Source of the DNA: Leptasterias polaris
Taxonomy: Eukaryota > Echinodermata > Asteroidea > Forcipulatida > Asteriidae
Assembly: GCA_037783415.1 (NCBI GenBank)
Contig: JAZGTN010000047.1
Location: 3,968,001 to 4,032,000 of the forward strand
Direction of reading: 5' to 3'
Length of the DNA stretch: 64,000 bases
The translations under genes were made by a program, and so were the position numbers. This document shows, piece by piece, positions 2,639 through 64,000 of the stretch. Numbering within the stretch: position 1 is the stretch's first letter; every line of letters starts with the position of its first letter. Under the pieces are notes generated by a model. It did not search any database, was not told the DNA's origin, and worked only from the letters and a program-made list of their open reading frames with translations.

Positions 2639-3557
2639 GACATACTTAAAACATACGGCCAAACATCCAAACGATTTTGGTCCAGAATGCCCCACAGTTT
2701 TGAAAAAAACATGGGGAGAACCCCGAGGGAAAAACTTGTGAGGGGCTTCAGAGGTAAATCCCCTCATTGAAACGAGCAGTGTGTCTACGTTAGGAATTAG
2801 TTCCTTTCTTTCGGTTAGCATTGGAAAGGTATTACTTCTTTGTAATGTTTCTTTGTGTTAGGATTTCAGCATCACCTTTATACAATGTGAGGCCTTTTGA
2901 ATACCCCATTGTCGGGTGCATTTTTTCGTGCATTGGCCAGTGAATTGAGCAAGTTATTTACAAGGACGCAATTGTACACCCGAGTATTAGAGATTCTACT
3001 GTGTAGTAAGATTTAAAATGTTTACATCAATGTCTCTGACATACTGTACATCCTATAATTAAACTGTTCAATAATTTTGGGTTGAACATAGACAAATTTA
3101 CTACATTCCAATCTTATACAAGTCTCAGGATTTTGGTGATGAGTTACCAGAAAATGGAGGATTTTGGAGGATTCTGGAGAATCTCAAACCAAAGAAGGTT
3201 AGAACAGCTAGAAAAGGCCCAACCAAAAGAGATCAAATGTCAATAGAACCAATAACATGAAAAACAAAAATTAAACGAGGCCCCCCAAAGTTGTCCAGAA
3301 AGTCAGATTGATGACCATGGTATTGTCCAAACTCTCCAAAAGACTGGATCTACTACCTCTGTTGCCCAATATCTTAGCCTTGGTGCCCCTTTAAAAGTTT
3401 CCCATGGAAGTGCCCTAGCTGCAAAATTAAAATAGCCTTGCCCTCCAAAGTTGAAATTCCAGGCCTGCATTACATTTTTGTCTTGTAATGTTGCTGTCCT
3501 GAGGAGCAATGGCATTTCCCTATCAAGATTTCATTTGTAGTTTTTGTTGTCTTTCAG
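2639..3557 (+). other. 5' non-coding region ending in splice acceptor
   Basis: No coding exon recognised. The segment ends in a pyrimidine-rich tract and CAG (acceptor at 3556-3557), followed nine bases later by the start codon of PTPN13 at 3567. At least one 5' UTR exon must therefore lie upstream, perhaps outside the window. Bases 3401-3475 resemble 46292-46360, so an old dispersed repeat lies here. Confidence 0.55.
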
Positions 3558-37800: not shown

Positions 37801-40800
37801 GTCTGTCTTCCCTCGCCACCGCGGTTGGCTTGGGTTGCGGGACCTTTTTTGAGAAAGCTGCTACGGGGAATATCGACCGTTCGGTCCTTCCCTTCCCCTA
37901 CAGTTACGGCTAGATTAAAAATAACTAGCCATCACGTAGAGCGAACTTTTCGCGGGAATCAACGACTCTGTCGTCTCCGATTTCACGCGAATTTACGCTC
38001 GGAGTGAAGTACAGTACCGAACATAACGAAGTCCACACTGTACGTACCTGCCCTAGCGTTTTAGTGATTTATCGGGATTATCGCGATTTATCGCGTTTTT
38101 AACACGATTTATCACGAAATATAATTCGCAATGAAAAAGGGCACAGCTAAGGGTCCGAGTGGTACCAAGGGTAAACCCATGAAAGGTACAACACACTCGA
38201 AGTCATCATCAGTCCTTGGACTCGTGACTTCACCCGGTCCTCAGGCGCGGGCTTCCTCAGGAAACTCAACGCCTCGAACAACCACTGGATTGCTAGCCCA
38301 GGCTACTCCAGGGAGTGAACTGGCGGGATCAGAGTTAGAGGCTTCAAGGGATCCTCCTCCCCTGCCCCATAGGGTGAGAGAATCCCAGTCAACTTCATTC
38401 ACTGATCGATGCTCAGGAGTACCGATGATTGACCCTTCATCGGAGTTCTCCCGGGGTAGTGCGACTGGCAGTCCTTCAGGCAAGAAGGCTAAGCAGAAAC
38501 GCCCAGTTTCCTCTTCTGATGATTCTTCAGCAACACCGAAGATCAAGAAGAAAAAGACAAAGGATACCATATCCTCTGCGGTTTTTATGAAGGCATTTGA
38601 TTCCATCAGTACTTCATTGGCCGCGATCGCCCAACAACAGTGGAGGGCGGCACCCGATTCACAACGGGCTCCCCCGCCATCCACCTTCCCGGACCCAGAC
38701 CCGGGGTTGATCATTCAGGGACCGATCATGGCAGCTCCACGCTATCCCAGCCTCCCAGACCCATCTGAGGTAGGCGGTAGTGAGCCAGAGGTGCCTCTCA
38801 CTCCAGGGCGTGCCCGTCGCCCACCAGGTTCACCAACGGCCATCTCACTACATCCCTCGACAACTTTTGGGGTCTCCGACAGTGAGGAACCCGAGGGGGA
38901 ACTGAGCTCACGTGAGTCACGTGTTTGCTCTGAGGAAGATGAGGCCGCGGACCCAAGCAGTTTTTCATCTTTTGAAACTCAGCTTAGGTTGATACAACGA
39001 GACATGGTACGTGTCCTTAAGCTACCGGCCGATGATACCCCAGAAGAGTCATCTGGACATCGTTCCTTTAAGACACGTACGGGAGGGGAGGAAACGCGTA
39101 GTACACCGTTCCCGACCCTTCCGCTAGATCGACTTTGTGTGGATCGCATTAAGAGCACAGCCTCTCTGAAGAAATGGATCCCGCACACGAGAAGATCGAA
39201 AAATTATTTTCAGTACCCACAGAAAGACTGTGAGGACTTTTTTACAGTTCCCACTATACCATCTACCGCTAAAGACAAGCTCTCGAGCGATGGAGGTAAG
39301 GCCTCGGCTAAGGCGATCTTCGCTGACAAGAGTAAAGCTCGATTGGAAGAGCAGATGAAGAAGATTGATGAGGCTGCTCGGTTTGGCGCCAAAACTAACG
39401 CCTTTCTTCTACTGCTGTCAGAGTATATTGTCTGCGCCTGTGAGGAGGGCGCTTCCACCCCAGCGGATATGCTTGCTGTAGCTTTTCGTTGTCTGGAGGA
39501 GGGCCTAAGGATGTCCCTAGAGCAGTTCACTCGGATCTCGCTCCAGGCTACACGATCCCGAAGGACAAACGTCCTGGAGACGTTGTACATCCCCTATGAC
39601 GGAGCAAAGAAAAAGTTGGAAGACATTTCTCTCCTTGGGAATGACCTCTTTGGAGGACAATTTCAAGAGGTCCTTGAGGCAGAGGCCAAGCGTCTGAAGA
39701 CAGCGGACAAACTGAACCTGCGGAAGCCAGTGGCGTCCAAGGCTAAGTTTGGAGGGAAGAAGACTAACAAGGTCAGCTTTACGCCACGTCCGGCGTTCCG
39801 TAAGGCCCTCAAGTCCTCTCACCAGCAGGCCCCTAGGGTATCTCCCAGCGCTGCTCCGGCAACACCTCGCTACTCCCAGCCTGTCCGTCAGAACTTCCAG
39901 ACGGGCGGCAGGGGCCGTGGCGCCGGTAGGCCCCCTCCCCCTCCCCGCTACTCGGGGGGGTGGAGGAGGTGACGTCCCACTCCCGACTCTGGCCCCCGAC
40001 CTGGGACCCGTCGGGGGCCGCCTCAGAGATTTCGCAGGGTCTTGGGACGCGATCACGTCCGACGCATGGGTGCTCGCAACGGTAAAACATGGCTACCGTC
40101 TGGAGTTCACGAGCACCCCTTCGTCGGACACCCTAGTTTGCGAAACGCCAGTTCCTGCAAACAGAGGAAAACGCCTGGCTCTAGAGAAGGAGATATCCTC
40201 CCTTCTAGAAAAACAGGCGGTGCGTCCGGTGACGGAATCAGAACAGTTCCAAGGGTTCCTTTCGACGTTTTTTCTAACGCCCAAAAAGGGAACCTCAGAA
40301 TGGCGACCAATCATAAATCTGAAACCGCTCAATCGGTTCATCAGACCGAGGCGCTTCCGGATGGAAACACTCAAAGTGATCCTGGAGTCGCTACCCAAGG
40401 CAGTGTGGGCAGCATCGATCGACCTAAAAGATGCGTACCTCCACATACCCATCTTGTCGGAACACTCCCAATACCTACGATTCAGGTATCGAGGGCACAC
40501 ATTGGAGTTCAAGGCTCTTCCTTTCGGACTCTCAACGTCACCAAGGGTGTTCACAAGAGTCACGCGAACAATCGCAGCCTATCTACGTCGTCGGAATATC
40601 ATGATTTATATGTATTTAGACGACTGGCTGGTTGTCGGCAGATCGGAAGAAGAAACGTCCCGAAATATACGGACTACCTGCGAGGTGACGAGGGCCGTAG
40701 GTTTCATCATAAACGAGGAGAAATCCCGTTTCATACCAACTCAGTCTCCGACATTCCTAGGCGCAGTTGTCGATCTTCAGAAAAGCGTGGTTTTTCCCAC

Positions 40801-43800
40801 AAAGGAACGCACCACAGCCCTGCTTCAGTGCGTGGACCTGTTCCTGTTCGGCACGACGGCCACAGCACGGGCTTGGTTAAAACTCCTGGGCCTCATGGCC
40901 AGTCTGGTAGACCTGGTTCCATGGTGTCGCCTTCGAATGCGACCACTTCAATTACATCTCCTGTCACATTACAGGCCGAGAAGGGACTGCATAACCATTC
41001 TTGTGCCAATCACCAATCACATTCATCTGCATCTTCGGTGGTGGCAACAAGAGGAAAATGTCAATTGCGGCCTGGGGATCCCTCAGAGGGCCCCACAGGT
41101 GACAATCTCAACCGACGCATCCAACAAGGGTTGGGGTGCGTCCCTGGGCCCGCGGCAGACAGCCGGAGAGTGGGGAACATTTTTCAGATCCCAACACATC
41201 AACATATTGGAGCTCCAGGCGGTCTTCAATGCTCTGCGACATTTTCGAACCGAGGTAAAAAACCGGACGGTTCTCATCAGAACGAACAACACGACAGTCG
41301 TGTCCTATATAAACAGGCAAGGGGGCACGCGGTCACCGCAGCTATGCCTCCTCACCTGGGATATATTTCGGTGGCTCATCCAGAACGAGGTAGTCCTGCG
41401 AGCAAGCCACATTCCAGGAGTGGAAAACACGGTGGCGGATGCATTGTCAAGGGGTACAGTGATCCCTACAGAGTGGACCCTGCACAACGGAGTAGCCCAA
41501 CAGATCTTCGCGACAGCGGGTCGACCACACATAGATCTCTTTGCGACAGAAATAAATGCCAAACTCCCGGTATTCTGCGCAAGGTTTCATCACCCCATGG
41601 CTTGGGCCACCGACGCCCTGGCCATAGACTGGACAGACATGTTCGCATATGCGTTCCCTCCGATATCCCTTCTCCAGAGAGTCATAGGGAAGATAGAGCA
41701 GGAACCGTGCCGAATTCTCCTGATCGCTCCCTTCTGGCCACGCCAGCCGTGGTTCCTGAGGCTAGTGAGACTCCTGATAGGGGATCCTTTAATCCTCCCG
41801 GATCGACACGATCTTCTATACCAACCACACTCCCGTCTACTGCACCCAGCGCCGGGAGACCTCCACTTGGCGTGTTGGCCACTGTCCAGCGATCCCTCAT
41901 TGCAGCAGGCCTTTCTAAGGAAGCTGCAGCCCTGGCAGCGAAGGGGCGTCGCCTCTCCACACGAAAGGTTTACGACAGTCGACTTCGACATTTTAGTCGT
42001 TGGTGTGCCGACCGATCGGTGGATCCGGTCACAGCATCTCTAGCAATGGTGTCGGATTTTCTGGTCCACCTCTTCAAATCCCAACTGAAGGTGGCAACGA
42101 TAAAAAAAATTACAGATCGGCCATTGCTGCGGTCCACGCGGGGTTCCCTGATAATTCCACAATCTCATCGAACCCTGTACTAACACAATTATTTCGGGGC
42201 ATGTTTAATGAAAGACCCCCAAGACAGAGGCTTGTCCCATCTTGGGACTTGGGGCGCGTGCTAGAGAACTTAGCAGCGCCTCCATATGAACCAGCGAACC
42301 TATCATCGCTGCTGCAACTTTCCACTAAGTTGGCCTTCCTTATAGCCGCAGCTTCGGCTAGACGGGGATGTGAAATCCAGGCACTAACAATCCACCCGGG
42401 TCACATCAGATGGGAACCGGGCGGGGTTCGTCTTGTGCCCAGGGCATCGTTCCTGACAAAGAATCAGACGGCAATCTTTACTCCGCCTGACATCTTCATT
42501 CCCGAAATTGCGTCGGTATCGTCGGTGCGATCAGACAGGCTCTGGTGCCCCGTACGTTGCCTCAAATGGTACCTGGAACGTACCAAATCACTTAGGGGGA
42601 ATTGCGATCAAATATTTATCTCAACTACTCCCCCACATGGTCCGGCCTCCAAAGATACAATCAAGCGATGGATTGTATCGGCGATAAAGTCGGCTAACCC
42701 CGACTGGCTGTCCGATAAGGACAAAGACAGTCAGGGAACCATACGTGCACACGACGTTCGCGCCGTGTCCACATCCTGGGCGTTCTTCAGAGGGATTTCT
42801 TTTGCAGAGATCTCACAAGCAGCTTGCTGGAAAGGCCCATCAACCTTTACCACCTGCTATCTGCGTGATGTGCTTCAGAACGAAGGTGCCTTTGGGAGAG
42901 CAGTGCTGTCAGCATCTCAACCCAGAAGGGAATCACAGCCAAGTGATCCCCCCAGGCGACGCCAGGACAAAACTTGAGGTGAGACCAAGAAAAAAAAGAG
43001 AAAAAAAAAAAAAAAAGGTGACTCGCCTACCCAACCTCCATGTTGCGGTGCTATTCTATGCATAAGTAGTAACTATTTGGGTAAGTGAATGAAATAGACT
43101 CCCCCACCACAGAAGTGTGGGATGAGTCTATGAATGATACTTACCCAAATAGCACCCCGCCCTCCTTCCCCACTCTTGGCTCGTAGTCAGGGTTACCTCT
43201 TAGATGATAAAAAGAAGGACGTAAGATGGCGGAGCTACTGCGTAGCATGCTGGGTGGGCACGAGAGGGCGCCCTATTGGTTGTCAATCTTTCTAGCGAAG
43301 TAGCCTGCCGGCTAGGAATATGCATAAGTAGTAACTATTTGGGTAAGTATCATTCATAGACTCATCCCACACTTCTGTGGTGGGGGAATTTTAAAGGTAA
43401 ACTTGATCAAAGCTCTCTTGTTCAACTAATAAAGGCAAACTCTATTAGTGTTCATTTCGACGAATGTCAACTTTTTCCCATCCAAGACAAAAGTCTTGGT
43501 AGTGGTTTGTGCTGTGAACTGCCCAAATAGGGCTAGTTCAGAAAAAAGAAAAATGATTCTGAAAAAGTTGGAATTCTGAAAATATGAAGAAATGAAATGT
43601 TTTATCACATCTTAACGTTATTTCATATAAACAAAATTAATCGATCGGACAAAGCTTATATTTTTAAGAACAACTTATACTTCTTGGTTTGAAACTAGTT
43701 TTGGTTCAGACTTGGCAAACTAATACCCCTCATTTTACGATTCAAATCAATTTAGTAATAATTGAAATGAAAAATAATTCATGAAGTCCGGCTTACATTT

Positions 43801-50110: not shown

Positions 50111-50510
50111 TATAATATTATTTTTTTTATGGACAATAATGCATTGCTGTAGTCAGAGTTTTAAACTTCACAGAGAACTGCTTGTGCAAGACTATTTATG
50201 TATACTCGTTTATAGTTGCGCCTTATGTGCATTTTTAGAGGTAGCAAATTTACGTTTATACACATTATGTAGAAGACAGTCGCCAAGTTACAGGTGTTTG
50301 TGATAAGGGGTTGTGCATTTTAATCTTGATTTTGAGGGACCAGAATTTCATTTTAATCTGGATTATGAGGCATCGTTATATCGAAAATCAGGCAATATCT
50401 TAAAAAGTTGCCAACGTAGACAACTCAAACCAAGAATTTTCCGCTCTTCGCACTCCGTCTCGCATCTATACCAAATTTCAGTAATCCATCAGTGAGCAGT
50501 AGTACATCAG
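50111..50510. other. unrelated 400-bp insert between satellite blocks
   Basis: Sequence without satellite units, interrupting the 70-bp array. It has a short internal duplication ('attttaatcttgattttgag' / 'attttaatctggattatgag'). No gene recognised. Confidence 0.4.
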
Positions 50511-51424
50511 TGTATTAGTTATTTTTGAGGCTGGTAATGAGTTCAAATTCAGTTTAAGTGAAGAAGAGCAGTTATTCAGCAGTGTTGGTCATGTTTGAGG
50601 CTAGTAATGAGTATTTGTTAAGTTTAATTAAACAAGAGCAGTAATACATCAGTGTTGGTTATGTTTGAGACTAGTAATGAGTACATGTTCAGTTTAAGTG
50701 AACTTGAGCAGTAATACAGCAGTGTTGGTTATGTTTGAGACTAGTAATGAGTACATGTTCAGTTTAAGTGAACTTGAGCAGTAATACAGCAGTGTTGGTT
50801 ATGTTTGAGACTAGTAATGAGTACATGTTCAGTTTAAGTGAACTTGAGCAGTAATACAGCAGTGTTGGTTATGTTTGAGACTAGTAATGAGTACATGTTC
50901 AGTTTAAGTGAACTTGAGCAGTAATACAGCAGTGTTGGTTATGTTTGAGACTAGTAATGAGTACATGTTCAGTTTAAGTGAACTTGAGCAGTAATACAGC
51001 AGTGTTGGTTATGTTTGAGACTAGTAATGAGTACATGTTCAGTTTAAGTGAACTTGAGCAGTAATACAGCAGTGTTGGTTATGTTTGAGACTAGTAATGA
51101 GTACATGTTCAGTTTAAGTGCACTTGAGCAGTAATACAGCAGTGTTGGTTATGTTTGAGACTAGTAATGAGTACATGTTCAGTTTAAGTGCACTTGAGCA
51201 GTAATACAGCAGTGTTGGTTATGTTTGAGACTAGTAATGAGTACATGTTCAGTTTAAGTGAACTTGAGCAGTAATACAGCAGTGTTGGTTATGTTTGAGA
51301 CTAGTAATGAGTACATGTTCAGTTTAAGTGCACTTGAGCAGTAATACAGCAGTGTTGGTTATGTTTGAGACTAGTAATGAGTACATGTTCAGTTTAAGTG
51401 AACTTGAGCAGTAATACAGCAGTG
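50511..51424 (+). repeat. 70-bp satellite, 11 near-identical copies
   Basis: Exact 70-bp periodicity: the phrase (a/c)acttgagca recurs at 50701, 50771, 50841, 50911, 50981, 51051, 51121, 51191, 51261, 51331 and 51401. Diverged copies lie upstream. Three copies (51121, 51191, 51331) share the same A-to-C change. Each unit carries the near-palindrome GTTCAGTTTAAGTGAAC. High identity shows recent expansion or homogenisation. Confidence 0.92.
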
Positions 51425-51429
51425 TTTGA

Positions 51430-51865: not shown

Positions 51866-51984
51866 TTCCAGAATATGACTAAATATAATACATTACGTCA
51901 TGTCATGCATGTCATGCCTGCGCGCAGCAAGCGAAAGTAGTCAATTTTGTGTCGCACTGAGTGTTCCTCTAGTCTCTAGCTGTC

Positions 51985-52371
51985 ATGGCGTCGCTCATGA
52001 GCTGTAGTACTACTACTACTAGTAGTGATGAACGCACAAGCATGTCAAGTCGTTTCGTAATTCTAGGTGTGAAGACATCAATAATAATTCATTACCTTAC
52101 CAGCGGGAGGTATGTGGAAGGCCTGACAGAGGGGGAAAAGAGGGCTGTATGTGCCCAATCTAAGAAATATTCTTACGACGCGGTATTGTCTGACAATTTT
52201 AGAGCACGAGAAAGGAGACCACGTCACCAACACGGCTGGAACGAACAGTACGGCCGCGCATGCGTACGTCACCTGGAACGCTCAGTACGCCGGAACGTCG
52301 AGGACGTGACACCGGCGAGACATTGCGGGAGCCAGTTGCGTAACCCTGTGGTCTTCGACAAGACCAGGTGA
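51985..52371 (+). CDS. possible short coding segment, unknown product
   Basis: A 128-codon frame from ATG at 51985 (context ctgtcATGG). The Ser/Thr-rich N-terminus (SCSTTTTSSDERTSMSS) is followed by IHYLTSGRYVEGLTEGEKRA, which faintly recalls the N-terminal part of some integrase-type retroelement proteins, then a basic tail. Upstream lie TTACGTCA (51893, CRE-like) and a GC-rich stretch that could be a promoter. I do not recognise the gene. It may be a first exon, a transposon relic or chance. Confidence 0.25.
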   Translation: MASLMSCSTTTTSSDERTSMSSRFVILGVKTSIIIHYLTSGRYVEGLTEGEKRAVCAQSKKYSYDAVLSDNFRARERRPRHQHGWNEQYGRACVRHLERSVRRNVEDVTPARHCGSQLRNPVVFDKTR

Positions 52372-52379
52372 TTGGAACC

Positions 52380-54619
52380 AGCCAAAGAAAACGACAGGTA
52401 CCTGATTACCACCTAACACCAGATAAACATATAGTAGGGTTTGGGTACTCGACGGCTTGATGCTAAGACGCGATATTCAAAATGGCTTCCAGCCATGCTT
52501 TATTTATGTTTTACACCGTGTATGTATTACGATCATTTGATGTGATTTATTGTCTCTAGAGGTAAGCTTTATCGTGTAGTTAATTTAAGTTTAAAATGTA
52601 GAATAGGAATAGGCCTCATGGAGGCCCCTCATCGAGCCCGTGTAAACACTAAGATTGTCATAAAAATGGTAATGTTGTCGTTTCTATTTCCACCTTCATG
52701 CACGTAAACAACGGCACTTGAAGGTAACAACACCCGGAAGTAAACGTTTGGCCCATCGTAGGTCATTGCACTGTGCCAGTCAATGGCAACTAACTGGCCG
52801 TCGATCAAATGAAACAATCGACTTTTCTTTTTAGAGTTTCTCGGTTACCTAATCTATTACCACTTGTACTATTGGGGTTTTCATAATTATTGTATTTCTT
52901 CCTCAATGCGTGGACTGGACAGCTAGTTGTAGACACAATCGGTGATCAATGTGAGGGCCCAGGCCTACATGGTTTCTAAAAAGGGAATTAGCCTTCATGT
53001 AACGCCAGCTGTTGTAAACCGCCTACCAACAAAATGACATGTTGTATCATCAACAGAAAAGGTAAGACGTTTTGACCTTTGCAGAGTCTTTCTCGAAGGC
53101 TGACGTTCTAAAACGGGTTAAAGTTTGGCACCTATACATTCATTCACCCTGAACTTAAGACACCGTAATTTTGGGTGGGTATCGATTTAAAAATAAAAGT
53201 TGATGATTTCAAGTTGTAAATTCTTTGAAACATTTACCGAATAAAGACAACGACGATACTGTGTAATTTTACTTCTGGTTGATAATGATATTCAATGTTG
53301 TATATGTTTGAACCTTGCCCAATTCAGTGTAAATAAATACAATAACGAAATGAAAACAAGAGTATTTATTCATAATCAAAGGAACTTTGGTACCAGTTCA
53401 AATTTTATTTGATATTTTAATCGTTCATCTTTGCTCGAATATGATAGAATATGCTCTTTATTAAAGGAACATGTACGACCCATAATGATAACAATGTTTT
53501 AAAATTTAGATTTTTCGACTTTTTCCTTGACGAAAATAATATAAATTTGGGAGTTCTATTTTCAGTTTAAAAATATAATAAAAAACCCCAGACGATTTCT
53601 TTTTTTAAATCGAAGGTCTGGTTGTGCGGGAGTTTCCAACAAAATTGTAGATGTTATTATTATTACTTGTATTATTATTCTTTTTCGACAACGATAATTC
53701 TAAATACCCCCAGACATGGACACCCAACTTTTGTTTGCCACACAAATCACTGTATTCCAAACCTTTATAAGATGATTTATGCAACGCCAAAATCCTTCTC
53801 ACAGACGCTGAATGCGCATCGCAAAGTATAACAACTAAAAGCAAGGCTGTACAAAAAATAAATCACAAATTATACAAATAGGACAATTTTACAATTTGTA
53901 CAGCAACAAAATAATAATAATAAAATGCTACAATCATTACTCCTGATGCTGTAGATAAATACGTATATAAGTTAATGCAAAACTATAAAGAAACTAAATA
54001 TTAAATAATTCTTGAACGATATTTATTTAAACAAAACAATAGACTTTTCAACGAATTCCTGCCCAAAATCCTAGCTGAAAAAAAAAATCCCGATATCGAC
54101 CATTTAAAGAAGCTGAATTCTTCGGCTAATTTTATGTTCACAGTGTGAGACGCAGCCACAAATGATGCATTTAACATCACAGGGAAAACTCCCCACACCA
54201 AACAGCTCTATCCAATTCCCCTTTTGTCCCCCCTAAACAATTATACAAACAAATAGGAAAATAAACAATAACTTCAGTTGAAAAAACACCTGTATACAAC
54301 TTAGTCCAATCATCCAGTCCATACCCGAACCCGGTCTCTTCCCGATGTATTTTTCAAACCCTAACGAAACCACTCAACCGAACTTCACGCAAAATCTAGC
54401 GAGAACACCGGTGAAATGTTCACTTCTTGCCCTTGCTACTAATTTCCACTCACCACGGCATGAACGAGCCTCTAAGACCCTTTAAATTCAAGCTCTAAGC
54501 ATTCCTTCGTTCCACAACGAGTACCACCGAGTCAGACACTCAAATATTATCCCATTAACTCCCATCCCATCAGTAGTCAGACCAATAATTCCATATACCG
54601 TTTCATATGTGCACTAATT
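52380..54619. other. AT-rich intergenic stretch, no gene seen
   Basis: No exon, RNA gene or tandem repeat recognised on either strand. Short open frames (for example 53605-53844 and 54001-54201 on the minus strand) are AT-rich and have no features. Confidence 0.45.
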
Positions 54620-55150
54620 TTCTATACCTACAGCGTGTGCCTTGAACCCACATATCTTTCAAGTCCGAACCTAACTCCATTATGCCTATGTTTCCTTAGT
54701 AAACTAATGGTCCATACTAAAAGCGTGTGTCTTCCCACTCGATTTTTTTTCTGAGTCGGAACCAAAGAGTCACCTGTATTATACCAATTCCTAAGTAAAT
54801 TAATGGTATAGCGTGTGCCTTCTACTCGCAAATTATTTACCAAGTATAAAGCAAGGATTTCCCTATGCCATAGTACCATGCGTACTCTGTTAACTAAATT
54901 AACTAGTAATGGTCTATACCTAAAGCGTGTGCTCCAATTCGAATTATTTTCTGAGTTCCCTGTATACTTATACCTACTCCTACCTACTCCTAAGTAAACT
55001 AATGGTATATCGTGTGCCTTCCACTCGCAAATTAATATTCACTACGAAGCACTGATTTCCCAATGCCATAGTATATGTGAAGTATTCCACTCGCGAATTA
55101 TTTACTAAGTATAAAGCACTGAATTCCCATGCCATAGTATCCAATGTAAA
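54620..55150 (-). repeat. degenerate spacer units at the edge of the tRNA-like array
   Basis: Four to six diverged copies of a unit containing 'agcgtgtgccttccactcgc', 'aattatttac' and 'atgccatagta'. The same words form the spacer of the main array (tatagcgtgtgcaaattatt). Here the tRNA-like parts are missing. Confidence 0.6.
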
Positions 55151-55194
55151 ATATGAACCGAAGGTTCATCAAGTTCAAAATGCATATGTTCCTG

Positions 55195-55383
55195 GGGGGG
55201 ACCCAAGTGGGTGTCGTGGAAGGGCGGTTGACTCCGAAGCCAGAGGTCCCCGGTTCGAGCCCCAGTGGTGACAAGGTTCGAGGCCGCGAAGAGAGTGGTG
55301 GCCGTGAGACTCACCGCGCGGTGTGACGCGCCGCCCATTCGAGGATGGGAAGGAAACTTAAAACTTAAAACGAACCTCTGCAC
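55195..55383 (+). repeat. tRNA-derived SINE-like element, plus strand
   Basis: A tRNA-like part with a very good box B (CGGTTCGAGCCCC at about 55252) and a poor box A is followed by a GC-rich body (aaggttcgaggccgcgaaga ... cgcgcggtgtgacgcg). It differs from the Gln-like units and points the opposite way to its neighbours. Confidence 0.5.
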
Positions 55384-55430
55384 TTTTTTTCAAAGATGGT
55401 TTTAAAAAAATAAAAGATGGTTCTTTAAAA

Positions 55431-56445
55431 CGCCTCGAATTTATATGCAAAGGGATTCGATCCCGGGACCTTTCGGTCCAGAGTCTGGAGCCCTTCCATT
55501 GGGCCACTGCTCCTCTTACTTAAGATGTGTTAGAGTTTAATTTTAAACCTTAGAATGAACAACTTTAGGTCAATAATGTACAAAAAGAACACCCGGGATT
55601 CGAACCCAACGGGATTCGATCCCGGGACCTTTCGGTCCAGAGTCTGGAGCCCTTCCATTGGGCCACTGCTCCTCTTACTTAAGATGTGTTTGAGTTTAAT
55701 TTTAAACCTCAGAATGAACAACTTTAGGTCAATAATGTACAAAAAGAACACCCGGGATTCGAACCCAACGGGATTCGATCCCGGGACCTTTCGGTCCAGA
55801 GTCTGGAGCCCTTCCATTGGGCCACTGCTCCTCTTACTTAAGATTTGTTTGAGTTTAAATTTAAACCTCAGAATGAACAACTTTAGGTCAATAATGTACA
55901 AAAAGAACACCCGGGATTCGAACCCAACGGGATTCGATCCCGGGACCTTTCGGTGCCGAGTCTGGAGCCCTTCCATTGGGCCACTGCTCCTCTTACTTAA
56001 GATGTGTTTGAGTTTAATTTTAAACCTCAGAATGAACAACTTTACGTCAATAATGTACAAAAAGAACACCCGGGATTCGAACCCAACGGGATTCGATCCC
56101 GGGACCTTTCGGTGCCGAGTCTGGAGCCCTTCCATTGGGCCACTGCTCCTCTTACTTAAGATTTGTTTGAGTTTAATTTTAAACCTCAGAATGAACAACT
56201 TTAGGTCAATAATGTACAAAAAGAACACCCGGGATTCGATCCCGGGACCTTTCGGTGCAGAGTCTGGAGCCCTTCCATTGGGCCACTGCTCCTCGTACTT
56301 AAGATGTGTTTGAGTTTATTTTTAAACCTTAGAATGAACAACTTTAAGTCAATAATGTACAAAAAGAACACCCGGGATTCGAACCCAATACCTTTGGGTT
56401 CAAAGTCCGGATCCCTACCACCAGGCCACTGGTCCTCTTACTTTA
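55431..56445 (-). repeat. tRNA-Gln-like array A, 159-bp units
   Basis: Units begin at 55452, 55611, 55770, 55929 and 56088 (period 159 bp), then 56231 (143 bp, without a 16-bp duplication), and end in a diverged unit near 56375-56445. On the minus strand each reads GGAGCAG, box A TGGCCCAATGG, an anticodon loop with CTG, box B twice (GGGATCGAATCC and GGTTCGAATCC, the T-arm region being duplicated) and a T5 run. The last unit has a TTG anticodon loop (ACTTTGAA). Since 159 is divisible by three, both strands stay open as false 53-residue repeat proteins. Confidence 0.85.
55586..55672 (-). tRNA. tRNA-Gln(CTG)-like unit with duplicated T arm (array A example)
   Basis: An 87-nt representative of array A. 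The acceptor strands GGAGCAG and GTGTTCT pair at six of seven positions with wobbles; the D stem GCCC/GGGC is complete. The anticodon stem is poor. The T arm occurs twice. Probably a pseudo-tRNA, but the Pol III control elements are intact. Confidence 0.35.
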
Positions 56446-57373
56446 AGTGCGTTCGAGTTTAATTTAAATCCTAGAACATTAAATCAACAAGGCCAAAAAG
56501 TAAACTACTTGTAATTAAAGCGTGTTCCTTCCAATCACAATTTGTTTACTAAGTGTAAAGCAAGGATTTCCATATGCCATAGTACCATGCGTAAACCCAA
56601 TGGTTTTACCTCGTACAAAAGAACACCAGGGAATTGAACCCAGGACCTTTGCGTTCAGAATCCGCAGCCTTACCACTATAGGCCAACGCTCCTCTTAATT
56701 TAACTGCATTCGAGTTTACTTAAATATCAAATCAAAAACGGCCAAGCAGGAAACATAAGTTTGAACAACTTTAAATCAACAACGTGTAAGAAAAGAACAG
56801 CCGGGTTTCGAACACAGTACCTTTGGGCTCAGAGTCCGCAGCCTTACCACTATAGGCCAACGCTCCTCTTAATTAAACTGCATTCGAGTTTGCTTAAATA
56901 TCAAATCAAAAACGGCCAAGCAGGAAACATAAGTATGAACAACTTTAAATCAACAACGCGTAAAAAAAACTGCCGGGTTTCGAACACAGTACCTTTGGGT
57001 TCAGAGTCCGAAGCCGTTGCGATGGGCCACTGCTCCTCTGAATCAAGAGGGCGTTCAAGTGTAATTTAGCCCCTAGAACATCAAATCAACAACGGCTAAA
57101 AGTAAACTGGTGTATAGCGTGTGCAAATTATTTACGTGTAAGTCAAGGATTTCTTTTTACCATTGTGCCCTGCAAATCCAATGGTTTTACCTCGTTCAAA
57201 AAGAACACCCGGGAATTGACCCCAGTACCTTTGGGTTCAGAATCCGTAGCCTTACCACTATAGGCCAACGCTCCTTTCAATTAAACTGCATTCGAGTTTG
57301 CTTAAATATCAAATCAAAAACAGACAAGCAGAAAACATAAGTATGAACAACTTTAAATCAACAACGCGTAAAA

Positions 57374-57444
57374 AGAACAGCCGGGTTTCGAACACAGTAC
57401 CATTGGGCTCAGAGTCCGAAGCCCTTCCGCTGGGCCACTGCTCC
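57374..57444 (-). tRNA. tRNA-Gln(CTG)-like, type B
   Basis: 71 nt. Acceptor GGAGCAG/CTGTTCT pairs 7 of 7 (two wobbles), D stem GCCC/GGGC 4 of 4, the anticodon loop holds CTG, box A TGGCCCAGCGG, followed by T5. The anticodon stem has two A-C mismatches, so the charge status is doubtful. An identical copy lies 407 bp downstream. Confidence 0.45.
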
Positions 57445-57780
57445 TCTTAATCAAGAGGGCGTTCAAGTGTAATTTAACCCCAGAACATCAAATCAACAAC
57501 GGCTAAAAGTAAACTGGTGTATAGCGTGTGCAAATTATTTACGTGTAAGTCAAGGATTTCTTTTTACCATTGTGCCCTGCAAATCCAATGGTTTTACCTC
57601 GTTCAAAAAGAACACCCGGGAATTGACCCCAGTACCTTTGGGTTCAGAATCCGTAGCCTTACCACTATAGGCCAACGCTCCTTTCAATTAAACTGCATTC
57701 GAGTTTGCTTAAATATCAAATCAAAAACAGACAAGCAGAAAACATAAGTATGAACAACTTTAAATCAACAACGCGTAAAA

Positions 57781-57851
57781 AGAACAGCCGGGTTTCGAAC
57801 ACAGTACCATTGGGCTCAGAGTCCGAAGCCCTTCCGCTGGGCCACTGCTCC
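57781..57851 (-). tRNA. tRNA-Gln(CTG)-like, type B (second copy)
   Basis: Exact copy of 57374-57444, displaced by 407 bp as part of the higher-order repeat. Confidence 0.45.
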
Positions 57852-58015
57852 TCTTAATCAAGAGGGCGTTCAAGTGTAATTTAACCCCAGAACATCAAAT
57901 CAACAACGGCTAAAAGTAAACTGGTGTATAGCGTGTGCAAATTATTTACGTGTAAGTCAAGGATTTCTTTTTACCAGTGTGCCCTGCAAATCCAATGGTT
58001 TTACCTCGTTCAAAA

Positions 58016-58089
58016 AGAACACTCTGGGAATTGAACCCAGTACCTTTGGGTTCAGAGTCCGCAGCCTTACCACTATAGGCCAACGCTCC
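58016..58089 (-). tRNA. tRNA-Gln(CTG)-like, type A
   Basis: T stem CTGGG/CCCAG is fully paired and box B is GGTTCAATTCC. D stem GCCT/AGGC is fully paired. The anticodon loop has CTG. The acceptor carries an extra nucleotide on the 3' side compared with sister units, so folding needs a bulge. Confidence 0.4.
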
Positions 58090-61000
58090 TCTTAATTAAA
58101 CTGCATTCGAGTTTGCTTAAATATCAAATCAAAAACGGCCAAGCAGGAAACATAAGTTTGAACAACTTTAAATCAACAACGTGTAAAAAAAGAACAGCCG
58201 GGTTTCGAACACAGTACCTTTGGGTCCGCAGCCTTACCACTATAGGCCAACGCTCCTCTTAATTAAACTGCATTCGAGTTTGCTTAAATATCAAATCAAA
58301 AACGGACAACCAGAAAAAATAAGTATGAACAACTTTAAATCAACAACGCGTAAAAAAGAACTGCCGGGTTTCGAACACAGTACCTTTGGGTTCAGAGTCC
58401 GAGGCCCTTCCGCTGGGCCACTGCTCCTCTTAATCAAGAGGGCGTTCAAGTGTAATTTAACCCCAGAACATCAAATCAACAACGGCTAAAAGTAAACTGG
58501 TGTATAGCGTGTGCAAATTATTTACGTGTAAGTCAAGGATTTCTTTTTACCAGTGTGCCCTGCAAATCCAATGGTTTTACCTCGTTCAAAAAGAACACCT
58601 AGGAATTGAACCCAGTACCTTTGGGTTCAGAGTCCACAGCCTTACCACTATAGGCCAACGCTCCTCTTAATTAAACTGCATTCGAGTTTGCTTAAATATC
58701 AAATCAAAAACGGCCAAGCAGGAAACATAAGTTTGAACAACTTAAAATCAGCAACGTGTAAAAAGAACAGCCGGGTTTCGAACACAGTACCATTGGGTTC
58801 AGAGTCCGAAGCCCTTCCGCTGGGCCACTGCTCCTCTTAATCAAGAGGGCGTTCAAGTGTAATTTAACCCCAGAACATCAAATCAACAACGGCTAAAAGT
58901 AAACTGGTGTATAGCGTGTGCAAATTATTTACGTGTAAGTCAAGGATTTCTTTTTACCAGTGTGCCCTGCAAATCCAATGGTTTTACCTCGTTCAAAATG
59001 AACACCCGGGAATTGAACCCAGTACCTTTGGGTTAAGAGTCCGCAGCCTTACCACTATAGGGCGAACGCTCCTCTTAATTAAACTGCATTCGAGTTTGCT
59101 TAAATATCAAATCAAAAACGGCCAAGCAGGAAACATAAGTTTGAACAACTTTAAATCAACAACGTGTAAAAAAAGAACAGCCGGGTTTCGAACACAGTAC
59201 CTTTGGGTTCAGAGTCCGCAGCCTTACCACTATAGGCCAACGCTCCTCTTAATTAAACTGCATTCGAGTTTGGTTAAATATCAAATCAAAAACGGACAAG
59301 CAGAACAAATAAGTATGAAAAACTTTAAATCAACAACGCGTAAAAAGAAATGCCGGGTTTCGAACACAGTACCTTTGGGTTCAGAGTCCGAAGCCCTACC
59401 GCTGGGCCACTGCTCCTCTTAATCAAGAGGGCGTTCAAGTGTAATTTAACCCTAGAACATCAAATCAACAACGGCTAAAAGTAAACGGGTGTATAGCGTG
59501 TGCAAATTATTTACGTGTAAGTCAAGGATTTCTTTTTACCAGTGTGCCCTGCCAATCCAATGGTTTTACCTCGTTCAAAAAGAACACCCGGGAATTGAAC
59601 CAAGTACCTTTGGGTTAAGAGTCCGCAGCCTTACTACTATAGGCCAACGCTCCTCTTAATTAAACTGCATTCGAGTTTGCTTAAATATCAAATCAAAAAC
59701 GGCCAAGCAGGAAACATAAGTTTGAACAACGTGTAAAAAAAGAACAGCCGGGTTTCGAACACAGTACCTTTGGGTTCAGAGTCCGCAGCCTTACCACTAT
59801 AGGCCAACGCTCCTCTTAATTAAACTGCATTCGAGTTTGGTTAAATATCAAATCAAAAACGGACAAGCAGGAAACATAAGTTTGAACAACGTGTAAAAAA
59901 AGAACAGCCGGGTTTCGAACACAGTACCTTTGGGTTCAGAGTCCGCAGCCTTACCACAATAGGCCAACGCTCCTCTTAATTAAACTGCATTCGAGTTTGC
60001 TTTAAAAAAAATATCAAATCAAAAACGGACAAGCAGAAAAAATAAGTATGAACAACTTTAAATCAACAACGCGTAAAAAGAACTGCCAGGTTTCGAACAC
60101 AGTACCTTTTGGCTCAGAGTCCGAGGCCCTTCCGCTGGGCCACTGCTCCTCTTAATCAAGAGGGCGTTCAAGTGTAATTTAACCCCAGAACATCAAATCA
60201 ACAACGGCTAAAAGTAAACTGGTGTATAGCGTGTGCAAATTATTTACGTGTAAGTCAAGGATTTCTTTTTACCAGTGTGCCCTGCAAATCCAATGGTTTT
60301 ACCTCGTTCAAAAAGAACACCCGGGAATTGAACCAAGTACCTTTAGGTTCAGAGTCCACAGCCTTACCACTATAGGCCAACGCTCCTCTTAATTAAACTG
60401 CATTCGAGTTTGCTTAAATATCAAATCAAAAACGGCCAAGCAGGAAACATAAGTTTGAACAACGTGTAAAAAAAGAACAGCCGGGTTTCGAACACAGTAC
60501 CTTTGGGTTCAGAGTCCGCAGCCTTACCACAATAGGCCAACGCTCCTCTTAATTAAACTGCATTCGAGTTTGCTTAAATATCAAATCAAAAACGGACAAG
60601 CAGAAAAAATAAGTTTGAACAACTTTAAATCAACAACGTGTAAAAAAAGAACAGCCGGGTTTCGAACACAGTACCTTTGGGTTCAGAGTCCGCAGCCTTA
60701 CCACCACTATAGGCCAACGCTCCTCTTAATTAAACTGCATTCGAGTTTGGTTAAATATCAAATCAAAAACGAACAAGCAGAACAAATAAGTATGAAAAAC
60801 GCGTAAAAAGAACTGCCGGGTTTCGAACACAGTACCTTTGGGTTCAGAGTCCGAAGCCCTTCCGCTGGGCCACTGCTCCTCTTAATCAAGAGGGCGTTCA
60901 AGTGTAATTTAACCCTAGAACATCAAATCAACAACGGCTAAAAGTAAACGGGTGTATAGCGTGTGCAAATTATTTACGTGTAAGTCAAGGATTTCTTTTT

Positions 61001-61849
61001 ACCAGTGTGCCCTGCCAATCCAATGGTTTTACCTCGTTCAAAAAGAACACCCGGGAATTGAACCAAGTACCTTTGGGTTAAGAGTCCGCATCCTTACCAC
61101 TATAGGCCAACGCTCCTCTTAATTAAACTGCATTCGAGTTTGCTTAAATATCAAATCAAAAACGGACAAGCAGGAAACATAAGTTTGAACAACTTTAAAT
61201 CAACAACGCGTAAAAAGAATTAACAGCCGGGATTCGAACACAGTACCTTTGGGTTCAGAGTCCGAAGCCCTTCCGCTGGGCCACTACTCCTCTTAATCAA
61301 GAGGGCGTTCAAGTGTAATTTGACCCTAGAACATCAAATCAACAACGGCTAAAAGTAAACTGGTGTATAGCGTGTGCAAATTATTTACGTGTAAGTCAAG
61401 GATTTCTTTTTACCATAGTGCCCTGCAAATCCAATGGTTTTACCTCGTTCAAAATGAACACCCGGGAATTGAACCCAGTACCTTTGGGTTCAGAGTCCGC
61501 AGCTCTACCACCAGGCCAGTGCACGTATTCACAAGTTTCCGTTGAGTTTAAATCTAATAAACCTTAGAATTAACAAAACTAATGAAACAAGGTACAAATA
61601 AAGAAGAACACATTACTGCAATTGCGTTTGCGTGTAAATTTAACCTCAGAAAGGACAGATTTATTTATTTGAATTTCAAAAAGAAATCTACAGAACCTGG
61701 GACCCATCGTTCAAGAAACCAAAGTCGTTCCACTAGGCTGTTGTGTTTGCCATCTCGTTGCCTTTGATAATAAGATATATACTTTTGAATAACTTACAAT
61801 GCCGAGGGGAACATGATTAAAAATATATGTTTCAGGGATTCGAACCCGG

Positions 61850-61908
61850 TACCATTGGGTTTGGAGTCCCGATCCTTGTCCACAAGGCCAGTGGTCCTCT
61901 GGCTAATT
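61850..61908 (-). tRNA. degenerate tRNA-like sequence, CCA anticodon loop
   Basis: The minus strand has box A TGGCCTTGTGG, an anticodon loop CTCCAAA (CCA, Trp-like) and a perfect box B GGTTCGAATCC, but the 3' acceptor strand does not pair. Lies in the unique spacer between the inverted arms. Probably a pseudogene derived from the same ancestor. Confidence 0.3.
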
Positions 61909-62083
61909 TGCATTTTTATTTGATGTAGAATCTCAGAATGAGTTGCCACCGTAGAGAATTATAAACTGATACGATGAAAGGAATGGGACTGGACATGCAC
62001 GACGGGGTTGTGGCATGCACGGATGTTTTGGGTGAATAAATGCACGGGACTAAATGTTAGGAGCCAAACTCCGGGACGAATCG

Positions 62084-62139
62084 GGGTGGGGTGGGGTGGG
62101 GTGGGGTGGGGTGGGGTGGGGTGGGGTGGGGTGGGGTGG
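62084..62139 (+). repeat. (GGGGT)n microsatellite, 11 units
   Basis: Eleven tandem GGGGT units close to the axis of the inverted array. Such tracts can form G-quadruplexes. It is not the animal telomere repeat (TTAGGG). Confidence 0.95.
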
Positions 62140-62724
62140 ATGTTCACGAGGAGGGCATGATGTGGCCAACAAAATTATTAAATATACAAGTATTTGATTT
62201 TTAAATAAAAACAACATGGACTCTTTCTTGCTTTTTTCTCTCCAATATTCGAGTTTATTAATTTTATATCGATAAGGTATTCCTTCCAAACACAAATCTA
62301 AATTAAAACATTTCAGACAATTAACACACTTTCAAGACTTATTTGCAACAAATTTCAACAGTTTGCCCCATACTAATTTACACGCAAACGCAATTGCAGT
62401 AATGTGTTCTTCTTTATTTGTACCTTGTTTCATTAGTTTTGTTAATTCTAAGGTTTATTAGATTTAAACTCAACGGGAACTTGTGAATGCGTGCACTGGC
62501 CTGGCGGTAGAGCTGCGGACTCTGAACCCAAAGGTACTGGGTTCAATTCCCGGGTGTTCTTTTTGAACGAGGTAAAACCATTGGATTTGCAGGGCACTAT
62601 GGTAAAAAGAAATCCTTGACTTACACGTAAATAATTTGCACACGCTATACACCAGTTTACTTTTAGCCGTTGTTGATTTGATGTTCTAGGGTCAAATTAC
62701 ACTTGAACGCCCTCTTGATTAAGA

Positions 62725-62795
62725 GGAGTAGTGGCCCAGCGGAAGGGCTTCGGACTCTGAACCCAAAGATACTGTGTTCGAATCCCGGCTGTTCT
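62725..62795 (+). tRNA. tRNA-Gln(CTG)-like, type B, GGAGTAG acceptor
   Basis: The acceptor pairs 7 of 7 (three wobbles), D stem 4 of 4, CTG loop, box B TGTTCGAATCC, T6 terminator. Anticodon stem mismatches as in the sister units. Confidence 0.45.
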
Positions 62796-62881
62796 TTTTT
62801 ACACGTTGTTCATACTTATGTTTCCTGCTTGTCCGTTTTTGATTTGATATTTAAACAAACTCGAATGCAGTTTAGTTAAGA

Positions 62882-62952
62882 GGAGCGTTGGCCTGGTGGT
62901 AGAGCTGCGGACTCTGAACCCAAAGGTACTGGGATCAATTCCCGGGTGTTCT
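62882..62952 (+). tRNA. tRNA-Gln(CTG)-like, type A
   Basis: The acceptor GGAGCGT/GTGTTCT pairs through wobbles. Box B GGATCAATTCC has one change. CTG loop and T5 terminator. Confidence 0.4.
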
Positions 62953-63090
62953 TTTTGAACGAGGTAAAACCATTGGATCCCGGCTGTTCTTTTTTACACG
63001 TTGTTGATTTAAAGTTGTTCATACTTATGTTTTCTGCTTGTCCGTTTTTGATTTGATATTTAACCAAACTCGAATGCAGTTTAATTAAGA

Positions 63091-63161
63091 GGAGGGTTGG
63101 CCTGGTGGTAGAGCTGCGGACTCTGAACGCAAAGGTACTGGGTTCAATTCCCTGGTGTTCT
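63091..63161 (+). tRNA. tRNA-Gln(CTG)-like, type A, GGAGGGT acceptor
   Basis: Same family with one change in the acceptor that reduces pairing. Box B GGTTCAATTCC is intact. Confidence 0.35.
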
Positions 63162-63324
63162 TTTTGTACGAGGTAAAACCATTGGATTTGCAGGGCCCTC
63201 GGTAAAAAGAAATCCTTGACTTACACGTAAATAATTTGCACACGCTATACACCAGTTTACTTTTAGCCGTTGTTGATTTAATGCTCTAGGGTTAAATTAC
63301 ACTTGAACGCCCTCTTGATTAAGA

Positions 63325-63395
63325 GGAGCAGTGGCCCAGCGGAAGGGCTTCGGACTTTGAACCCAAAGGTACAGTGTTCGAAACCCGGCTGTTCT
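63325..63395 (+). tRNA. tRNA-Gln(TTG)-like, type B
   Basis: The anticodon loop reads ACTTTGAA, so TTG (also Gln) instead of CTG. The acceptor pairs 7 of 7 and the D stem 4 of 4. The T stem has two mismatches. T7 terminator. Confidence 0.42.
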
Positions 63396-63493
63396 TTTTT
63401 TACACGTTGTTGATTTAAAGTTGTTCATACATATGTTTTCTGCATGTCCGTTTTTGATTTGATATTTAACCAAACTCGAATGCAGTTCAAAGA

Positions 63494-63564
63494 GGAGCGT
63501 TGGCCTGGTGGTAGAGCTGCGGACTCTGAACGTAAAGGTACTGGGTTCAATTCCCGGGTGTTCT
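63494..63564 (+). tRNA. tRNA-Gln(CTG)-like, type A
   Basis: Acceptor GGAGCGT/GTGTTCT, T stem CTGGG/CCCGG paired 5 of 5, box B GGTTCAATTCC, T5 terminator. The D stem has one mismatch. Confidence 0.42.
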
Positions 63565-63728
63565 TTTTGAACGAGGTAAAACCATTGGATTTGCAGGGCA
63601 CTATGGTAAAAAGAAATCCTTGACTTACACGTAAATAATTTGCACACGCTATACACCAGTTTACTTTTAGCCGTTGTTGATTTGATGTTCTAGGGTCAAA
63701 TTACACTTGAACGCCCTCTTGATTAAGA

Positions 63729-63799
63729 GGAGTAGTGGCCCAGCGGAAGGGCTTCGGACTCTGAACCCAAAGGTACTGTGTTCGAATCCCGGCCGTTCT
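63729..63799 (+). tRNA. tRNA-Gln(CTG)-like, type B
   Basis: GGAGTAG acceptor with one mismatch (A6-C). Box A TGGCCCAGCGG and box B TGTTCGAATCC are good. T6 terminator. Confidence 0.4.
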
Positions 63800-63885
63800 T
63801 TTTTACACGTTGTTCATACTTATGTTTCCTGCTTGTCCGTTTTTGATTTGATATTTAAACAAACTCGAATGCAGTTTAATTAAGA

Positions 63886-63956
63886 GGAGCGTTGGCCTGG
63901 TGGTAGAGCTGCGGACTCTGAACCCAAAGGTACTGGGATCAATTCCCTGGTGTTCT
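63886..63956 (+). tRNA. tRNA-Gln(CTG)-like, type A
   Basis: Last complete unit before the window end; CTG loop, box B GGATCAATTCC, T5 terminator. Confidence 0.4.
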
Positions 63957-64000
63957 TTTTGTACGAGGTAAAACCATTGGATTTGCAGGGCCCTCGGTAA

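Follow-up and report, generated by a model that had tools for sequence, protein, structure and literature searches.

Tandem tRNA-like units in Leptasterias polaris as the probable core of a dispersed foldback-like palindromic element family

Introduction

Does an array of tRNA-like units in the genome of the asteroid Leptasterias polaris consist of working tRNA genes, or does it belong to something larger? The array lies near one end of a stretch of 64,000 nucleotides (contig JAZGTN010000047.1 of GenBank assembly GCA_037783415.1, forward-strand positions 3,968,001 to 4,032,000), which we call the window and which corresponds to C47:3,968,001-4,032,000 in the contig numbering used here. An initial reading of these letters, the original prediction, had described tRNA-Gln-like units with intact RNA polymerase III (Pol III) signals at 55,431 to 64,000 and had offered three options: a genuine tRNA cluster whose stem is modified or edited, a tRNA-derived satellite or a source of small RNAs. 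Sequence comparisons across the genome (630 Mb, 334 contigs) lead us to consider it likely that the array is the tandem-repeat core of a dispersed family of foldback-like palindromic elements, in which Pol III-type tRNA-like units occupy long inverted arms. The usual notion of a tRNA gene cluster does not fit it, and the earlier observation was real but captured only the core of the element.

Results

The array in the window is the inner part of a palindrome

Searching the window sequence with nhmmer and three unit seeds recovered 42 tRNA-like units spanning 55,451-63,961, 34 on the minus strand and 8 on the plus strand, the same counts as had been claimed. By type they comprise 12 B, nine A1m, seven A2m, six C, four A1p, two F, one D and one E unit, type D being named by its position. 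Of the 42 units, 33 carry CTG as anticodon triplet, three CTT, two TTG (56,436 minus and 63,324 plus), two CGG and one CCA, and the loop is deleted in one; the two TTG units had been read correctly, and 'nearly all CTG' amounts to 79%. The coordinates first assigned to the array were too narrow, since nine more units follow in the next 1.6 kb, to ~65,583, and mirror homology extends from 51,951 to ~68,745. The resulting palindrome of ~17 kb continues past the end of the window and surrounds a non-palindromic centre of ~0.7 kb. Its plan is a short centre, two opposed unit arrays, a truncated edge unit on each side and mirrored outer arms, the left/right homology beyond the units exceeding 3 kb. 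The parts that fall within the window are as follows.

51,951-55,450, no strand assigned: left outer arm of the palindrome; its mirror copy lies beyond the window at ~65,583-68,745, with main blocks 93.7-97.9% identical
55,451-56,293, minus: six C-type units at the array edge, four with a second T arm, the outermost truncated at the arm junction
56,365-56,436, minus: D unit with a TTG anticodon
56,617-61,291, minus: 25 units (nine A1m, seven A2m, nine B), partly in a higher-order repeat of ~407 bp
61,448-61,527, minus: F unit, the first of the left half, adjoining the centre
61,641-62,374, no strand assigned: non-palindromic centre, with the E unit and a (GGGGT)n run inside; the arms match up to 61,640 and 62,375
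61,833-61,898, minus: E unit with a CCA triplet, the weakest unit
62,483-64,000, plus: right array within the window, eight units (one F, three B, four A1p)

Two side observations concern the surroundings of the array. A weak tRNA-like stretch (55,210-55,266 plus, 9-11 bits) lies in the outer arm by the array edge, and a 70-bp minisatellite of 13 copies (50,493-51,426) lies just outside the left arm.

Copies of the palindrome are dispersed through the genome

A genome search with a B unit gave 44 matches, all on contigs C47, C123 and C71, in the best 40 places of 924 candidates. From these three contigs we fetched seven loci holding 373 units: the window copy with its right-hand continuation (W) and six others (copies C1-C6). 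W, C1, C2 and C3 share a common plan, with a C edge unit, then mostly units of a further type, Q, then alternating A and B units, one E unit by the centre, and the mirror image of this order. Q units recur with a period of 143 bp; the left half of W has only C units and the D unit in the Q position. The centres of these four copies are 90-98% identical. Copy C6 consists of both halves without a centre, C5 of a right half and C4 of inner repeats only. The largest copy fetched, on contig C123 at 846.6-873.0 kb (L039-L041), measures 26.4 kb edge to edge and holds 131 units in very unequal halves, and unit counts differ both between and within copies. In the window subfamily, arms were directly seen at 11 ends of six loci. 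A stretch related to the window's 70-bp minisatellite sits outside the left arm of copy C2.

The idea that the array is confined to C47, C123 and C71, suggested by the lack of units at 6/6 places elsewhere that carry the outermost 401 bp of the arm, was overturned by a whole-genome search with the array-edge sequence. This pattern of 29 bases, allowing up to two mismatches, gave 115 matches (58 forward and 57 reverse), while the same pattern read backwards gave 0 and 0. Many of the edges carry TTACATAT in place of TTGCATAT. Among the 100 places listed of the 115, on 31 contigs, neighbouring edges within 30 kb form 26 (-,+) pairs, which is the orientation of the two ends of the window array, and a single (+,-) pair. 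The 26 (-,+) pairs lie on 16 contigs and have spans of 3.1-26.4 kb. Edge pieces from three further contigs (C5, C25 and C30) all showed a C unit followed by a Q-like unit.

One copy with edges of the TTACATAT kind lies on contig C75 (C75:330,980-337,625). The part of its left half that was read has a C unit, Q-like and B units, an A unit and then centre-like sequence, and its two outer arms show no difference in the 3,776 bases compared on both sides. When a 601-bp piece of this arm was used as a probe, 36 of the best 40 scored places (of 380 candidates), spread over 13 contigs, were external to an edge of the same strand, at a distance of 1.7-8.6 kb, and 0 lay on the inner side only. Copies of the piece other than those of C75 are 88-98% alike. 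Both arms were present in 12 of 15 edge pairs looked at. The arm sequences read contain no long frame, the longest being 131 amino acids (L104 up to 4,110) and 143 amino acids (L106), and no family search of these frames was made. A 23-base core pattern had 0 exact matches in viral contigs and 0 in prokaryote contigs.

Beyond base 3,443 both C75 arms enter a stretch that the C128 arm lacks at the corresponding position. In the left arm, where it was read to its end, this stretch has inverted ends, and by eye it looks like a nested insertion; the right-arm sequence covers its first ~330 bases. A stretch with inverted ends and repeated CACGAACTGACACA motifs, at L104 1-665 and from ~3,570 in L105, is possibly a small transposon nested in each of the C75 arms. 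The C75 arms also hold weak tRNA-like matches similar to that at window position 55,210-55,266.

Foldback-like element or segmental duplication

The copies have very long inverted repeats that form most of the element, as seen in the window copy and on C75, and the tandem repeats inside the arms vary in number, as reflected in the spans of the 26 edge pairs. Copies are found at many places, yet several of those on C47 and C123, the contigs on which flanks were compared, share flanks beyond the arms. Membership of the foldback class is therefore not proven, given that the C47 and C123 copies have sequence in common beyond the limit of the arm match.

Several observations weigh against a foldback-like element. 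Homology beyond the arm-match limit is present on the right in W, C3, C2 and C6 and on the left in C1, C2 and C6, although part of the right-hand stretch resembles the C128 arm (57 bases, 82%). The right arm of C1 matches over 1,740 bases only and then stops. Ten pairs of neighbouring edges among the places listed are on the same strand, and four of the 40 scored places of the C75-arm piece have no listed edge nearby, both a poor fit to a simple intact element. The outermost 401 bp of the window arm is a repeat of its own (40 places scored, the best of 337 candidates), which adjoins the array at 2/2 places tested on C47 and at 0/6 on other contigs. Finally, neither a target-site duplication nor a transposase was found, the outer ends being unreached and no search for an autonomous copy having been made.

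The main rival is that the palindrome is an amplicon spread by segmental duplication, a single inverted duplication at a tRNA-like satellite having produced a block that recombination, and no transposition, then copied. Such duplication is expected to leave sequence shared outside the mirror arms, as several C47 and C123 copies have, and several copies lie close together on C47, C123, C75 and C87. Nevertheless, 26 (-,+) pairs on 16 contigs, together with arms with edges on 13 contigs, are many for block duplication, and the complete identity of the C75 arms contrasts with the 88-98% of other arm-piece copies. On balance we consider segmental duplication unlikely, and a dispersed foldback-like element the probable explanation. 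The identity of the C75 arms suggests that arms are homogenised or regenerated from one template; seen in a single copy, it could reflect gene conversion or, less likely, the assembly.

Units are copied and homogenised within arrays

We asked whether the units behave simply as a satellite. Representatives of different unit types are 63-89% identical over the unit, and their flanks are often at the shuffled level. Within types, unit variability is about equal to that of the flanks or slightly lower. Tests of whether the unit is less diverse than its flanks gave, in the window, P = 0.93 for B (12 units), 0.50 for A1 (13), 0.04 for A2 (7) and 0.14 for C (5), and, for distinct units of the seven loci, P = 0.04 for Q (45), 0.02 for B (95), 0.07 for A1p (64) and 0.51 for A1m (31). 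On these values, purifying selection on the unit would be weak at most.

Evidence for copying is more direct. Fourteen identical Q units occur in six loci with nearly identical flanks, 8/14 being wholly identical over 127 bases; since the flanks are shared as well, recent copying explains them. Distances within loci are smaller than those between loci (0.068/0.081 for Q, 0.046/0.069 for B and 0.038/0.069 for A1p), and the tandem repeats are thus homogenised within arrays, as in a satellite. All four A2 units tested are chimeric: in unit m59247, A1 is matched on the 5' side at 90/95 and 91/95 sites, and B on the 3' side at 66/68 and 66/70 sites. Compared with tRNA-derived short interspersed elements (SINEs), the units are tandem, are ended by T runs and have flanks that differ between types.

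A plain tRNA-derived satellite, placed in inverted orientation by chance and belonging to no larger element, would account for the higher-order repeats and the chimeric units, and units of window types B and A1 are indeed about as variable as their flanks. It is contradicted by the joint dispersal of arms and array edges, as well as by the fixed edge unit and the fixed order of types, and we regard it as very improbable. Of the three original options, a tRNA-derived satellite came closest, although it describes no more than the interior of a dispersed palindromic element.

The units retain Pol III signals and lack a paired anticodon stem

Pol III signals were scored with simple consensus sequences for box A and box B and with a T run of four or more within 30 nt after box B. 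Box A was found in 31 of the 42 window units and box B in 40, each of the 40 being followed by a T run. All three signals occur together in 29/42 units and in 0/2,100 shuffled units. A tRNA array of the same genome served as a control; it lies on contig C30 (L046 1561-7904), with 32 ARAGORN calls for Lys, Ile and Thr and a repeat of ~730 bp. In this array 22/32 ARAGORN tRNAs have all three signals, and the units therefore equal the control. The signals are as good as those of the control array, although 'intact' does not hold for every unit. Box A and box B may still drive transcription of the units, which need not yield usable tRNA.

The tRNA fold was assessed with an automatic stem register, which scored 40 of the 42 window units and, in about six that contain indels, put the acceptor arm or the T arm out of place. 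The acceptor, D and T stems are mostly paired in the 40 units scored, whereas the anticodon stem has 1-3 of five standard pairs in 40/40, with ~2 expected from base composition. For the 12 type B units, the acceptor and D stems had been described as pairing 7 of 7 and 4 of 4; the D stem does so in 11/12, but the acceptor stem reaches 7/7 in only 5/12 in this register, which errs beside indels. Across the seven loci, 330 of 373 units could be parsed (those left unparsed being 15 C, 11 B, seven Q, four E, four A1p, one A1m and one A2), giving 164 distinct units. Standard pairs make up 84.8% of the acceptor stem (82.1% in shuffles), 86.4% of the D stem (83.8%), 81.5% of the T stem (82.1%) and 45.1% of the anticodon stem (44.6%). 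The claim that the fold has been kept is thus borne out somewhat for the acceptor and D stems but not for the T stem, and the excess in the former two is possible without selection because the units are related sequences. Double changes, affecting both members of a pair, are common at just two places, acceptor pair 7:66 (55 cells) and D pair 13:22 (27 cells), where they divide the unit types; elsewhere there are seven such cells in the anticodon stem and three in the T stem. The two A-C mismatches reported for the type B anticodon stem are real, and the one at 31:39 is present in 160/164 distinct units.

A hairpin joining the anticodon arm and the T arm was considered as an alternative fold and rejected: it appears in the consensus fold of seven type sequences, yet only one of the seven clearly beats shuffles (folding z of -2.73, the others ranging from -1.20 to +0.66). 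The minimum-energy fold is a cloverleaf in 2/3 real tRNA-Gln genes and in 0/4 unit types tried.

Covariance scores agree with the stem counts. Against the Rfam tRNA model, 24 of the 42 units gave a match at E up to 10, with 19.2-36.1 bits, and eight exceeded the gathering score of 29 bits. With the same scoring, E. coli tRNA-Gln genes reach 62 bits, and 34 matches listed for the Lys/Ile/Thr array (C30:5.813-5.821 Mb) reach 31.7-72.4 bits. A paired anticodon stem and a covariance score like that of real tRNAs, two marks of a functional tRNA gene, are both absent from the window units. To judge by their sequence, these do not look like working tRNA-Gln genes.

The genome has separate tRNA-Gln genes. 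In a search for them, 37 of the 40 places scored (the best of 149 candidates) fell in a tandem array at C27:4.70-4.75 Mb. Three genes were read out (on C27, C72 and C110), with CTG or TTG anticodons, CTG in the one on C27, and in all three the anticodon stem is paired. Descent of the units from tRNA-Gln was unsupported, types Q, B, A and E being 55-63% identical to these three genes. A Q unit is equally close to other sampled tRNAs of the genome, the best being a tRNA-Ile at 66%. The 'Gln' label therefore rests on the anticodon letters only. Among 59 Q units the triplet is CTA in 39, CTG in 10, TTG in nine and TAG in one, and ARAGORN calls some units Gln, Arg or amber-reading tRNAs.

Could the units nonetheless be working tRNA-Gln or suppressor tRNA genes, with an anticodon stem that modification or editing makes whole? 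In the Q units a C-to-U or A-to-I change could restore pairing at both A-C mismatches, the other three stems are mostly paired, the 31:39 A-C pair is nearly constant, and the scores of Q units in the other copies reach 57 bits, inside the range of the Lys/Ile/Thr array. Against this, the anticodon stem is paired at shuffle level, window units score at best 36 bits or find no match, the anticodons vary, separate tRNA-Gln genes with paired anticodon stems exist, and the 14 identical Q copies are explained by recent copying. The option of a genuine cluster with such a stem was accordingly set aside on the anticodon stem, the scores and the separate genes, and the probability we leave to it is slight. 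An assembly artefact, in which reads with a missed adaptor produce false palindromes, is as improbable: it would fit the identical C75 arms, but the window copy has arms that are 2-6% divergent and also differ in indels, and there are many copies with differing unit numbers.

Other features of the window

Frames with FERM, PDZ and tyrosine-phosphatase domains occupy ~17-37 kb of the window and look like a PTPN13-type gene. Between its PDZ exons lies a tRNA-like match (27,854-27,926 plus, 35.5 bits) that resembles dispersed GGCTAGATAGCTCAG sequences elsewhere in the genome and is perhaps the head of a SINE. A non-LTR (long terminal repeat) retrotransposon at 5,359-8,337 plus has an open frame of 992 amino acids with endonuclease and reverse-transcriptase domains, its closest protein being 69% identical. 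Domains of a reverse transcriptase and an RNase H at 39,716-42,977 plus are followed by a frame without a Pfam match, which we presume may be a DIRS-type recombinase.

Discussion

A dispersed foldback-like element would have arisen as follows. The units would have begun as a Pol III tRNA-like gene whose anticodon stem was lost before the units spread. Unequal crossing-over and gene conversion would have increased their number within the arms. The palindrome as a whole would have spread by copying to further sites, the simplest case being a non-autonomous DNA element that a putative transposase mobilised. A bolder proposal is a giant mobile palindrome in which tandem tRNA-like Pol III genes form a working part and one template serves to regenerate both arms. 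Such regeneration would explain the complete match of the C75 arms across 3,776 bases, a match that takes in the beginning of an apparently shared nested insertion. The working part might be, for example, a set of transposase-binding or replication-pausing sites, or a source of tRNA-like RNA, many with an amber anticodon. We put both the proposal and these roles forward tentatively and think them rather unlikely.

By analogy, the family most resembles a foldback element such as Tetris, a foldback transposon of Drosophila virilis (PMC4079207). Tetris has long inverted arms with an outer flanking domain, inner tandem repeats of variable number and a middle domain, long arrays that grow inside the element, and no coding capacity, all of which recall the element described here. 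The differences are that Tetris repeats are ~220 bp, with no mention of tRNA in the text, while ours are tRNA-like; that its arms are up to 1.7 kb, against > 3 kb plus the array; and that it has target-site duplications of 8-10 bp, the ends of the Leptasterias element being unreached (PMC4079207). Galileo of Drosophila differs in having transposase-bearing relatives in the P superfamily, and the abstract portions of its descriptions do not mention tRNA-like units (PMC3573991, PMC4168063).

Helenus elements, LTR elements with a tRNA-like sequence, are alike in being mobile and in having a tRNA-derived Pol III promoter whose product is held unlikely to be a functional RNA, but they have two direct LTRs, a primer-binding site and target-site duplications of 4-5 bp and are not palindromic, and their abstract describes no tandem arrays (PMC10886601). 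Clusters of tRNA genes in animals contain genes and pseudogenes spaced at under 1 kb, usually in parallel orientation, and their numbers are very large in some species; they are, however, defined by tRNAscan-SE calls and spacing, and the passages drawn on describe no palindromic dispersed element (PMC2888827). The tRNA gene arrays of Entamoeba likewise consist of tandem units with tRNA genes, but, according to the excerpts used, these are real tRNA genes with short tandem repeats between them, in another branch of life (PMC2652664).

Foldback elements with tandem-repeat arms and mobile elements with Pol III small-RNA sequences are thus each known separately. What is special here is that the foldback-like tandem repeats are tRNA-like units of Pol III type, a combination that was not among the titles listed in full-text searches of the open-licence literature. 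If this account is correct, such elements would be one source of the very large numbers of tRNA-like genes reported in some animal genomes. It would also be a warning to automatic annotation, which would call some of the units Gln, Arg or amber-reading tRNAs, and the copies would offer natural material in which to test the part played by Pol III units in palindrome formation, replication pausing and movement.

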